From Limnobacter sp. CACIAM 66H1 (GTDB lineage: Bacteria; Pseudomonadota; Gammaproteobacteria; Burkholderiales; Burkholderiaceae_B), in assembly GCF_001601825.1 (NCBI RefSeq), contig NZ_LUJK01000038.1, positions 1 to 33,038 on the forward strand: 33,038 nucleotides of DNA, given 5' to 3'. The position numbers were made by a program, and so were the translations under genes. Positions 1,659 to 4,716 of the stretch are shown piece after piece. The notes beneath the pieces were generated by a model. It made no database searches. It saw nothing but the letters and a program-made list of their open reading frames with translations, and was not told the DNA's origin. How positions within the stretch are numbered: position 1 is the stretch's first letter; the number at the start of each line of letters is the position of its first letter.

Positions 1659-2084
1659 TCAGTCCGCCGCCAGTCCCTCGAGTATCGGGCAGTCGGGTCG
1701 GGAATCACCTTTGCAACAGTGAACCAGGCGTTCCAGTTCGGCCTTCATTGCATTCAATTCGCGAATTTTCGCTTCCAGTGCATTCAAGTGTGATTGCGCA
1801 AGTTTTTTGACCTCCCTGCTTGGGCGCGTTTTGTCTTGCCACAGGCCAAGCAATTCCTCAATCTGCTTGATCGAAAAACCAAGGTCACGTGAGTGCCGGA
1901 TAAAGCGCAGCAAGTGCAAATCGCGGCTGTTGTACAAACGATAACCAGCCTCGGTGCGGTTGGCCTCGGGCAATAAACCCACCATTTCATAATGCCGAAT
2001 CATTTTTGCGGTGATCCCGGATTCCATGGCGGCTTCGCCAATCGTGAACCAATCTTTGCGTGTCCATTCTGCGTACATGTTCAC
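1659..2084 (-). CDS. cueR: CueR-type MerR copper-responsive regulator
   Basis: MerR-family activator of copper-efflux genes, 141 residues. The N-terminal winged helix begins at [20 protein letters not shown] and includes the family's EAGYRLY segment; a dimerisation coiled coil with [20 protein letters not shown] follows; the C-terminal metal loop reads [11 protein letters not shown]. Two cysteines about eight residues apart in that loop are the mark of Cu(I)/Ag(I)-sensing CueR proteins. The chosen GTG start overlaps the copA stop by four bases (GTGA), so translation is probably coupled to copA; an ATG two codons later (2078) is an alternative. Being downstream of copA, the regulator is likely autoregulated through the copA promoter. 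Probable operators lie at 4350-4370 and 4381-4401. Confidence 0.92.
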
Positions 2085-4315
2085 AACTCCACTGTTTCAG
2101 GTTTCAATAGTTTGGGTTTCCAGCGAGTCAACAACAGAGCGTTACTGACCACACTGACTGAACTCAAAGCCATGGCTGCGCCTGCGACCACCGGGTTAAG
2201 CAGTCCCATCGCGGCCAAGGGTATTCCTACTGCGTTGTACACAAAAGCCCAAAACAGATTTTGTTTGATCTTGTTGTACGTGCGTCTCGAAATATCAATG
2301 GTTTGAGCCACCAAGGCAGGGTCGGGTCGCATCAGCGTGATGTCGGCTGCATGCATGGCCACCTCTGTGCCACTGGACATTGCAAAACTGACATCCGCAG
2401 CTGCGAGCGCAGGCGCATCGTTGATTCCATCGCCCACCATGGCCACCACCTGGCCCTGCTGGCGATAATGGGCCACTGCCTCGCTCTTGTTGTGCGGCAA
2501 TTGTTCAGCCTGCACCTCCGAAATACCCAGCGCCTGGGCAACGCGTTGGGCACTCGCCCTGGAGTCGCCTGTCAACAACACAGATTTCACCTGCAAATTG
2601 GTCAAATTTTGTACAGCTGCAAAAGCGCCTGCTTTCAAAGCATCACCAAAACCCAAGGCCCCCAGCAAGGACACTTCACCTTGCTGGTCTTCAGCAACCC
2701 AGGCATGGGTGGGTGCGTTGTCTGGCAAGGCTTGGTTCACCGCACTCAACGCCGATTCCGGCACGCCCAGTTCACGCATCCATCGCGCAGTACCTACATA
2801 CACACGTGTGCCATTCACCATGCCACTGACACCACGCCCGGGCTGGTCCTGCAATTGGCTTACCCCAGGCCATTGAACGCCCTGCCCTTGCGCATAAGCC
2901 AGCACTGCTGAGGCCAGCGGGTGAGCGCTGCCCGCTTCAACAGCTGCTGCCTTGGCAAGAAAGCTGTGCAGGCTATTGCTGTCAAACGGCACGGCTGCAC
3001 CCACAGATGGCTTGCCCTCAGTCAAGGTGCCGGTTTTATCAAACACAACCGTGTTGATGCGATGGGCAAGCTCCAGCGCCTGAGCATCTTTAATCAGAAT
3101 TCCATGGCGCGCCGCCACGCCCGTGCCTGCCATGATTGCAGTAGGTGTGGCCAAACCCAAGGCGCAAGGGCATGCAATCACCAACACAGCCACCGCATTC
3201 ACAATGGCCAACTCCAGGTTGCCACCGTCAGCCAAAAACACCCAATACACCAAAGTCAGCGCTGCAATCACCAAAACCACGGGTACAAACACGGCGCTCA
3301 CCTTGTCCACCAGCTTTTGAATGTCAGGTTTGGCTGCTTGCGCGTCTTCGACGAGGCGAATAATTTTGGCCAGCGTGGTTTCAGCACCCACAGCGCTCAC
3401 TTCAATCAACAAGCGCCCATCCAGGTTCACAGCACCGCCGGTCACCAGGCTACCCGGAGATTTCTCAACCGCCTGGCTTTCCCCGGTAATCAGGGCCTCA
3501 TCCACATGGCCTTCGCCTTCCAGCACACGGCCATCCAGCGGAATTCGCTCACCGGGCTTCACCACCACCTGCATGCCCACCGCCACACTGGCAATCGGCA
3601 ACACTTTTTCGTGCCCGTTCTGAATCACTGTGGCGGTGTCGGGCCGCAAGGCTTGCAACGCAGCAATCGCTGCAGTGGTTTGCCGTTTGGCGCGTGCCTC
3701 CAGCCACTTGCCCAACATCACCAAGGTGATCACTGCGGCAGACGCCTCGAAATACAAATGCGGGTTGCCCTCGCCCAACATGTAAGCCGACAAACCAAAT
3801 GCCGCAGAAGTACCAATGGCCACCAGAAGGTCCATGTTGCCCGTGCGGTTTTGAATTGCTTTCAATGCTCCCCGATAAAAACGGGCGCCCAACCAAAATT
3901 GCACAGGGCTGGCCAAAAGCAGTTGTATCCAGCCAGGCAACATGTAGTGCTTGCCAAACAGCATTCCTGCCATGGGCAACACCAAGGGCAAAGTGAGCAA
4001 TGCCCCCCACAACACCATTTGCCCTTCTGTATCCGCTTTTTGGGTGATTGCAGCGGGTTGCTGGCCACTCTGACCTGCTGGTAAATCGGTTTTAACGGGC
4101 TCTGCGTCATAGCCTGCCTTTTGAACGGCCTCGATCGCATTCTGCAACAGATCGGGTTTGGCCAGTTGCACGCGGGCCTTCTCGGTGGCCAGGTTCACCG
4201 TTGCGCTAATGACGCCAGGTGTAGCCAACAATGCTTTTTCGACAGCGCTGGAGCATGAGGCGCAGCTCATGCCGCCCACAGCAATGTCGATGGTATTGGA
4301 CGGGTTGGAATTCAT
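2081..4315 (-). CDS. copA: Copper-exporting P1B-type ATPase CopA
   Basis: Inner-membrane pump that exports Cu(I) from the cytoplasm using ATP. The 744-residue protein has one N-terminal heavy-metal-binding domain with GMSCASC at 15-21, then about eight membrane helices. The actuator motif TGES is at 278-281, the intramembrane metal site CPC at 382-384, and the phosphorylated Asp is in DKTGT at 426-430. The later GDGIND hinge motif and a C-terminal NAVGIPLAA helix region complete the enzyme. A single metal-binding domain is common in proteobacterial CopA. The gene is first in a copA-cueR operon and divergent from copZ. A MerR-type promoter with a 19-bp spacer lies 28-58 bases upstream of the ATG. 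Silver could also be a substrate. Confidence 0.96.
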
Positions 4316-4342: not shown

Positions 4343-4373
4343 ATTTTCAACCTTAACACCATGTCAAGGTCAA
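4343..4373 (-). promoter_or_regulatory. CueR-type promoter of copA-cueR
   Basis: Read on the minus strand there is a -35 TTGACC (4373-4368), a 19-bp spacer, and a -10 GAAAAT (4348-4343). The over-long 19-bp spacer is the hallmark of MerR-family promoters. Within it sits a 21-bp imperfect dyad at 4350-4370 with outer arms ACCTT and AAGGT, resembling known CueR operators. The copA ATG follows about 28 bases after the -10. Confidence 0.8.
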
Positions 4374-4377
4374 TGCA

Positions 4378-4408
4378 TTGACCTTACCATGATTGGAAGC
4401 TTCAGGAT
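4378..4408 (+). promoter_or_regulatory. CueR-type promoter reading toward copZ
   Basis: On the plus strand there is a -35 TTGACC (4378-4383), a 19-bp spacer, and a -10 CAGGAT (4403-4408). The dyad at 4381-4401 begins ACCTTACCA and ends TGGAAGCT, the ACCTTxCCA/TGGxAGGT pattern expected of CueR with one arm base changed. It mirrors the copA promoter; the two -35 boxes form a 16-bp palindrome at 4368-4383. The copZ ATG lies 108 bases after the -10. Confidence 0.72.
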
Positions 4409-4458
4409 ACCCATGTGTTCAATTCAATGGGAGAGTCTTCATGACACCGCCATGGCGA

Positions 4459-4486
4459 TTGCCCGGTAAAGTACATGCATTAGAAT
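4459..4486 (+). promoter_or_regulatory. Possible second, housekeeping-type promoter for copZ
   Basis: TTGCCC (4459-4464) and TAGAAT (4481-4486) are separated by 16 bases, a usable sigma-70 arrangement, about 30 bases before the copZ ATG. If real, it would give basal copZ expression independent of CueR. The match is moderate and rests on base pattern alone. Confidence 0.35.
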
Positions 4487-4515
4487 TGCGTTTAACCCCA
4501 ACTGGAGTGCAAAAC

Positions 4516-4716
4516 ATGATTACCTTGAGTGTAGAAAAAGTGAAATGCGGCGGATGTGCCGCCAATGTGAAGCAGGCTGTATTGGCCAAAGACCCACAGG
4601 CACAGGTGCAGGTCGATGTCGCCAATAAACAGGTAGAAATTGATTCTCGTCTGGACGGACACACCTTGGCCACGATTGTCAGCCAGGCCGGTTACCCGGC
4701 CACGCTGCAAGCCTGA
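4516..4716 (+). CDS. copZ: Copper chaperone CopZ-like heavy-metal-associated protein
   Basis: Small cytoplasmic metallochaperone of 66 residues, consisting of one ferredoxin-like heavy-metal-associated domain. The metal site is KCGGCAAN near residues 10-17: the CxxC pair is kept, but the usual Met two places before the first Cys is replaced (VKCGGC rather than MxCxxC). The C-terminal VSQAGYPATL matches the conserved Gly-Tyr-Pro region. A Shine-Dalgarno GGAG at 4504-4507 fixes the ATG at 4516 over the longer in-frame opening that starts at 4393. The gene is divergent from copA and shares its regulatory region. It likely carries Cu(I) to CopA or buffers it. Confidence 0.88.
   Translation: MITLSVEKVKCGGCAANVKQAVLAKDPQAQVQVDVANKQVEIDSRLDGHTLATIVSQAGYPATLQA

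Follow-up and report, generated by a model that had tools for sequence, protein, structure and literature searches.

How could one short intergenic region switch on a copper pump in one direction and a copper chaperone in the other? The question is raised by the genome of Limnobacter sp. CACIAM 66H1 (assembly GCF_001601825.1), where two promoters of the type controlled by CueR, the Cu(I)-responsive regulator of the MerR family, stand back to back between the divergent genes copA and copZ. Here, the window denotes the whole stretch of DNA that was analysed, i.e. positions 1 to 33,038 (33,038 nucleotides, forward strand) of contig NZ_LUJK01000038.1. An earlier note on this DNA had drawn attention to a palindrome in which the two promoters meet. 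Our analysis points instead to the distance between the two CueR sites. For the predicted CueR pairs in the sampled proteobacterial records, phasing at three, four and five helical turns could be shown, and we propose, at a probability of roughly 0.55, that two CueR dimers on one DNA face would form a cooperative bidirectional copper switch. The promoter pair in the window consists of the following elements, with remarks on the genus loci L001-L012 that are compared below.

4343-4348, minus strand: -10-like box of the copA promoter, GAAAAT, with a 19-bp spacer at 4349-4367
4350-4370: 21-bp dyad of CueR type in the copA promoter, centred on 4360; complementary at 8 of 10 pairs, pattern match without mismatch
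4366-4385: perfect 20-bp palindrome AAGGTCAATGCATTGACCTT, made up of two back-to-back -35 boxes and the 4 bp between them
4368-4373, minus strand: -35 box of the copA promoter, TTGACC; TTGAC(C/T/A) in L001-L012
4374-4377: gap between the -35 boxes, TGCA, 4 bp; equal in length, not in sequence, in 12/12 genus loci
4378-4383, plus strand: -35 box of the copZ promoter, TTGACC; TTGACC in 12/12 genus loci L001-L012
4381-4401: 21-bp dyad of CueR type in the copZ promoter, centred on 4391; complementary at 7 of 10 pairs, pattern match without mismatch
4403-4408, plus strand: -10-like box of the copZ promoter, CAGGAT, with a 19-bp spacer at 4384-4402

CueR sites combine a promoter with a 19-bp spacer and a 21-bp dyad (PMC1526738, PMC5045206; here and below, papers are cited for parts of their text), and as a rule the dyad centre lies 7 bp from the 3′ end of the -35 box (PMC5045206). 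The window agrees with this description. Both spacers measure 19 bp, within the 19-20 bp of CueR-type promoters, and 7 bases separate the dyad centre from the -35 box on both sides (centres 4360 and 4391). Reading of the sequence and a script recheck thus confirmed the opposed copA and copZ promoters, with TTGACC -35 boxes and 19-bp spacers, that the earlier note had described. The two separate 21-bp dyads were also found where it had placed them (4350-4370 and 4381-4401), with their near ends 10 bases apart. Its statement that the CueR dimers sit one turn apart, however, fits only this gap between the near ends; the dyad centres are 31 bp apart, corresponding to about three helical turns. Similarly, the palindrome is perfect and built of both TTGACC boxes, but it extends over 20 bp (4366-4385) rather than 16 bp (4368-4383). 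The predicted transcription starts would presumably be about 79 bp apart, if a usual distance between start and -10 box is assumed. A CueR-promoter pattern, which was built with the window site and its relatives in view, matched the 3.2-Mb genome (108 contigs) without mismatch at two places only, namely this pair, and for this reason a chance origin of the pair is unlikely. With up to two mismatches allowed, 33 + 26 matches were obtained vs 31 + 32 for a reversed control, i.e. no excess.

The genus comparison comprised twelve loci with copZ divergent from copA (L001-L012, including that of the window). The paired element is present in 12 of 16 genus genomes, with d = 31, where d is the centre-to-centre distance of the two dyads. 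Two of the four genomes without it are incomplete (85% and 65%); in the other two, G004 and G014 (L014, L017), copZ is more distant and, as judged by eye, preceded by one CueR-type site. In all twelve loci the -35 cores (GTCAA....TTGAC) are four bases apart, whereas the central four bases read TGCA, TGCC, GCAC, CCCC, GGCC, TGGC or GTGC, and the copA-side -35 box is TTGACC, TTGACT or TTGACA. A perfect 20-bp palindrome occurs in only three of the twelve, the window's counted. In the genus loci, the distance is conserved and the palindrome is not. Since the centre and one arm vary at constant spacing, we rejected the palindrome as a functional unit, and the importance that the earlier note had assigned to the fused palindrome itself was not borne out. 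The comparison of relatives, which that note had suggested as a check, upheld two mirrored promoters whose -35 boxes keep the same distance in 12 of the 16 genomes, but not a conserved palindrome.

To include other spacings, we used a gap-neutral pattern for a mirrored pair of CueR sites separated by any 0-30 bases, which permits d = 27-57. The pattern is strict, so that CueR sites of other sequence are missed. Scanned over one genome for each of 84,980 species, it matched at least 120 stretches. Among the 120 matches listed, 14 have d = 30-33, 49 have d = 39-46 and 57 have d = 49-57; within the possible range, none was found at 27-29, 34-38, 45, 47-48 or 56. A CopA tree was calculated for 169 of 195 loci with the element (26 were dropped as offering too little CopA, and some genomes entered twice), and clades with d differing by no more than 1 were collapsed. 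This resulted in 81 groups, 69 of which have d up to 57. The 69 groups gave R = 0.73 at a best period of 10.8 bp, a value that was reached by 0 of 5000 draws with a uniform or a smoothed null. Sixty-six of them lie in bins that cover 15 of the 31 positions, the bins having been drawn from the first 120-stretch data, which are much of the same set. The mean d of the turn classes is 31.07 (7 groups), 41.94 (28 groups) and 52.03 (34 groups), and the fitted period is 10.75 bp (bootstrap 95% 10.30-11.20) with a phase offset from whole turns of -0.34 bp. Such whole-turn spacing with avoidance of half turns is expected of helically phased cooperative operators; it is found at three to five turns, with a drift beyond five.

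The same periodicity was met in elements that had not contributed to the bins. The expected bins were fixed before family f49 was searched, by which time the window's family had already been examined. Among 319 f49 genomes, a scan with gaps of 0-60 identified 65 elements in 64 genomes. Nine elements identical to the named set were excluded together with G294, which had been examined earlier; as f49 is partly represented among the named records, the test concerns unseen elements, not an unseen family. Ten of the 11 unseen elements with d up to 57 fall inside the preset bins (p = 0.004), the single miss being at d = 45. The long f49 elements have d = 60 (2), 62 (2), 65 (4), 66 (2) and 74-79 (34), and no element among the 65 has d = 46-50, 56-59, 67-73 or 80-87.

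The -10 region was absent from the search pattern and could be surveyed independently in 92 representatives (95 groups, three of which were dropped as near an end). On the copZ side, the -10-like box has A at position 2 in a fraction of 1.00 and T at position 6 in 0.89; the corresponding values for the copA side are 0.99 and 0.85. On both sides the best mean match was obtained at a 19-bp spacer. Since these unsearched -10-like elements are kept at 19 bp, both sides look like real MerR-type promoters. Genes within 600 bases of the matched stretches were identified by tblastn, with the three window proteins as queries. Of the 120 matches listed, 85 lie between copA and either copZ or cueR. A further 22 adjoin copA and 8 adjoin copZ or cueR, in both cases with no recognised partner; 4 adjoin neither gene, and 1 is flanked by copZ or cueR on either side. 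Eighty matches were listed with titles, which name Limnobacter, Bordetella, Achromobacter, Ramlibacter, Rhodobacter, Paracoccus, Microvirga, Lysobacter, Nitrincola and Bdellovibrionales. Judged by record titles and the usual taxonomy of the names, phased CueR pairs recur in alpha-, beta- and gammaproteobacterial records.

From this geometry we propose the following mechanism. Two back-to-back MerR-type promoters, each with its own CueR dimer site, would constitute a bidirectional copper switch. CueR would hold both promoters ready but off. In the Cu(I)-bound state it would distort both 19-bp spacers and induce, at one common copper level, the efflux ATPase in one direction and the metallochaperone in the opposite one. 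As a MerR-type dimer sits on one DNA face and the polymerase on the other (PMC9909328), whole-turn spacing would bring both CueR dimers onto a common face, with parallel two-fold axes and coplanar bends. We infer from the arrangement of the sites that CueR occupies both dyads and that the dimers cooperate. The earlier note had considered two mechanisms, cooperative binding and loading of polymerase on one side only at a time. The helical phasing favours cooperation or a shared bend, because avoidance of collisions alone would suit half turns as well or better, yet half turns are avoided. In the three-turn class, to which the window belongs, RNA polymerase would load one side at a time: with the facing -35 boxes 4 bp apart, two polymerases could hardly bind together, and alternation between the sides is likely on steric grounds.

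Could the spacing simply have been inherited? Two ordinary adjacent CueR promoters, whose spacing classes reflect common descent rather than function, would explain why the layout is passed on within genera, as in the 12 of 16 genomes of the window's genus with d = 31. On the CopA tree, however, we counted 34 Fitch changes between turn classes. When the 71 Fitch unions are ordered by the difference in d, 38 lie at 1-4 bp, none at 5-6, one at 7, 22 at 8-13 and 10 above that range; a change of 5-7 bp thus occurs only once. In addition, the phasing was repeated in the further f49 genomes, and the distance between the element and copZ, a control measured for 59 groups, showed only weak periodicity (R 0.18 at 10.5 bp and 0.23 at best, where chance would give about 0.12). 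We therefore give very little credit to descent as the sole explanation. Tandem CueR pairs with gaps of 0-60 were also considered as a comparison set for the spacing, but were dropped, as they occur in 0 of 120 f49 genomes vs divergent pairs in 26 of the same 120. It is also conceivable that the closeness of the two promoters matters more than their phase. Polymerase would then load only one promoter at a time, which would result in alternating, balanced transcription of copA and copZ. In the window, two holoenzymes should indeed collide, as judged on steric grounds, given that the -35 boxes are 4 bp apart on the same side, and competition at bidirectional promoters has been reported for recruitment-type activators (PMC12825309). 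Yet neither the tuning nor the avoidance of collisions requires a helical phase, exclusion is doubtful at five turns with about 25 bp between the -35 boxes, and basal transcription at five tested promoters was too low for competition (PMC12825309). Taken together, these points render competition quite improbable as the reason for the spacing.

The phasing might, on the other hand, serve the polymerase and not CueR, if the C-terminal domains of its alpha subunits (alpha-CTDs) contacted a UP-like A/T patch or the partner CueR dimer upstream at set helical positions. Such contacts would be in line with the composition of the spacers: A/T makes up 0.90 at two spacer positions of the 41-bp elements (10 groups; background 0.36) and 1.00 at one spacer position of the 42-bp elements (12 groups; background 0.39). 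The A/T patch of the 41-42 bp elements possibly represents paired UP sites or an extra -10 box; its position is presumably near that of the usual proximal UP subsite. The location of class I CAP sites at -62, -72, -83 and -93 (PMC9909328) also speaks for helically set contacts. Against such a role, spacers without A/T runs lie in the bins as well. When groups with d = 36-57 were split by A/T runs, 27 of 29 groups without a run of at least 4 were in bins (R 0.69), as compared with 32 of 33 groups with such a run (R 0.75), and even among groups without a run of 3 the bins held 18 of 20 (R 0.63). Since A/T-run-free spacers are phased too, we rejected a shared UP element as the main cause of phasing. 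The three-turn class, with 3-6 bp between the -35 cores, offers no room for a UP site, and the partner dyad is about 20.5, 31.5 or 41.5 bp from the -35 centre, off the class I positions of CAP. Moreover, the near-zero phase would have to be a coincidence. All in all, we consider alpha-CTD contacts an unlikely basis of the phasing.

Several observations also weigh against the cooperative two-dimer switch that we prefer. The paired element is a minority layout, as it was matched in 5 of 399 genomes of the order (gap 0-30) and, with gaps of 0-60, in 46 of the 268 genomes from the window's family and 64 of the 319 from f49; the reversed control pattern yielded zero matches in all three scans. The tree is one FastTree topology, midpoint-rooted and without support test, and the groups and changes derived from it are approximate. 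Among the classes of three to five turns, the three-turn class that includes the window has the fewest groups (7 of 69). Because the -35 centre is 10.5 bp from the dyad centre, phasing of the dyads and phasing of the -35 boxes are inseparable. Direct contact between the dimers at four and five turns would need DNA bending, since the dyad edges are then about 21 and 31 bp apart. The long classes are off strict register: their group means of 64.75 and 76.19 correspond to 10.8-10.9 bp per turn, and the commonest long f49 value is 78 (13 of 65) vs 73.5 expected at 10.5 bp per turn. With all 81 groups, 11.5 bp fits better than 10.5 bp (R 0.70 vs 0.62), and in the window's family two long elements have d = 84 and 87, of which 87 is at the limit of the range searched. 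This drift beyond five turns is evidence against a pure B-DNA register. DNA in cells is often said to be less tightly wound. More tentatively still, and at somewhat less than even odds, we suggest that in scattered proteobacterial lineages CueR, a metal sensor otherwise known as a single-operator activator that distorts the spacer, acts as a cooperative two-dimer machine locked on one DNA face. It would activate the promoters of pump and chaperone either simultaneously or alternately, with a spacer that evolves mainly by whole turns.

Some features of the spacers and of CueR deserve mention in their own right. An A/T-rich patch stands out in mid-spacer of 41-42 bp elements in otherwise GC-rich loci (L098, L100, L134); by eye, its sequence often resembles TANAAT in members of the window's family. 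Outside the genus, that family has elements with d = 40-42 and 54, plus single elements at 76, 84 and 87. The spacers of L186-L211 (d = 74-79) often contain, by eye, a CCC..GGG pattern; an FNR-like TTGAYNNNNRTCAA box is present in some of them (L209, L210) and was noticed by eye in L019. A third factor behind the long spacers of six to seven turns was rejected as an explanation, since FNR-like boxes, present in 2 of the 22 long elements and 1 of the 173 short ones, are too few. The CueR of the window has about 12 additional residues at its start; as the N-termini of CueRs encoded beside phased elements are diverse by eye, a contact arm at the N-terminus of a special CueR is not a general explanation.

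All three genes of the copper system lie within the window:

1659-2084, minus strand: cueR, MerR-family Cu(I)-responsive regulator (TIGR02044, 154.4 bits vs NCBIfam cut-off 147.4)
2081-4315, minus strand: copA, copper-exporting P1B-type ATPase (TIGR01511, 576.1 bits vs cut-off 397)
4516-4716, plus strand: copZ-like heavy-metal-associated metallochaperone, 66 amino acids (best match NF047957, CopZ family, 28.5 bits, under the cut-off of 85)

The genes copA and copZ are divergent, and cueR follows at the 3′ side of copA on the same strand with a 4-base overlap. A cognate CueR gene, with a TIGR02044 score over the cut-off, is thus near the promoter pair, as expected of CueR-type promoters. Since the match to the CopZ family is weak, CopZ-like metallochaperone is the safe name for the predicted product of 4516-4716. 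Of 60 relatives, 35 have a match to this protein with E of 0.001 or less; the weaker of these matches are possibly other metal-binding domains. From the copZ-side element to copZ (4409-4515) there is a long leader, 117 bases in L073 and L133 vs about 40-55 in other genus members (L001-L003 represent the same place). It holds a sigma-70-like promoter (TTGCCC at 4459, a 16-bp spacer and TAGAAT to 4486) and an alternative in-frame ATG at 4441, preceded by GGGAGA. The long leader may reflect an additional promoter that does not depend on copper, or else an N-terminal extension. Half of the palindrome (4366-4379) has a 14-base near-repeat (79%) in the same leader, at 4468-4481, which is probably due to chance. 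At L216, a second MerR-family regulator (309-716) is followed by a CueR-like site with one mismatch (718-744; G000:C10:75017-75043) and, beyond it, a gene with a cation-transporter-like product by eye; this is probably a separate metal system. Upstream of copZ in L015 (G059), we noticed by eye an apparent divergent copA with one CueR-like dyad between the genes, which may be a single operator for both directions or regulate one gene alone.

The earlier note had regarded the arrangement as not described in this form. It is true that the layout is confined to a minority of genomes; divergent copA and copZ genes with two CueR sites are nevertheless present in many other proteobacterial records. 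In Bordetella pertussis, the copZ operon has putative CueR sites, a mapped start and a CueR gene in antisense orientation (PMC7794356). In a literature search by titles and the opening of abstracts, with subscription papers mostly outside its reach, no spacing or phasing of paired CueR operators was found. Natural phasing of two CueR operators is evidence from evolution for communication, by way of the DNA, between two dimers or between two activated promoters. If this is true, the effect should be lost when 5 bp are inserted and regained with 10 bp, and coordinated expression of pump and chaperone in the cell would be accounted for. The paired element would also offer a natural bidirectional copper-inducible promoter of defined geometry.

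The present element shares the 19-bp spacer, the 21-bp dyad and copper ATPase and regulator genes as targets with the copA promoters of CueR and HmrR and with CueR regulons (PMC1526738, PMC5045206), including the copA-cueR divergon in Salmonella (PMC1526738). Paired back-to-back operators and their spacing do not feature in the examined parts of these two papers and set the present layout apart. With the bidirectional promoters of E. coli, and in particular SoxR at soxS/soxR, it has in common divergent transcription, pseudo-symmetric DNA and a MerR-family activator (PMC12825309). There, the -10 regions are shared, and SoxR at one site activates one side and blocks the other (PMC12825309). In the window, by contrast, the -10-like boxes lie apart at 4343-4348 and 4403-4408 with the -35 boxes facing each other; each side has its own dyad, and both sides are in principle activatable. 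The divergent merR/mer promoters likewise have a MerR-type regulator acting between them, but one operator serves both directions (PMC1526738). A parallel to the whole-turn spacing of the present pair is found outside the MerR family. MerR-family activators are textbook single-operator regulators. In the lambda repressor operators and the lac and ara loops, whole-turn distances allow dimers on the same face to cooperate, as tested by experiment; in the present pair, the corresponding register was read from natural variation in a metal-responsive activator.
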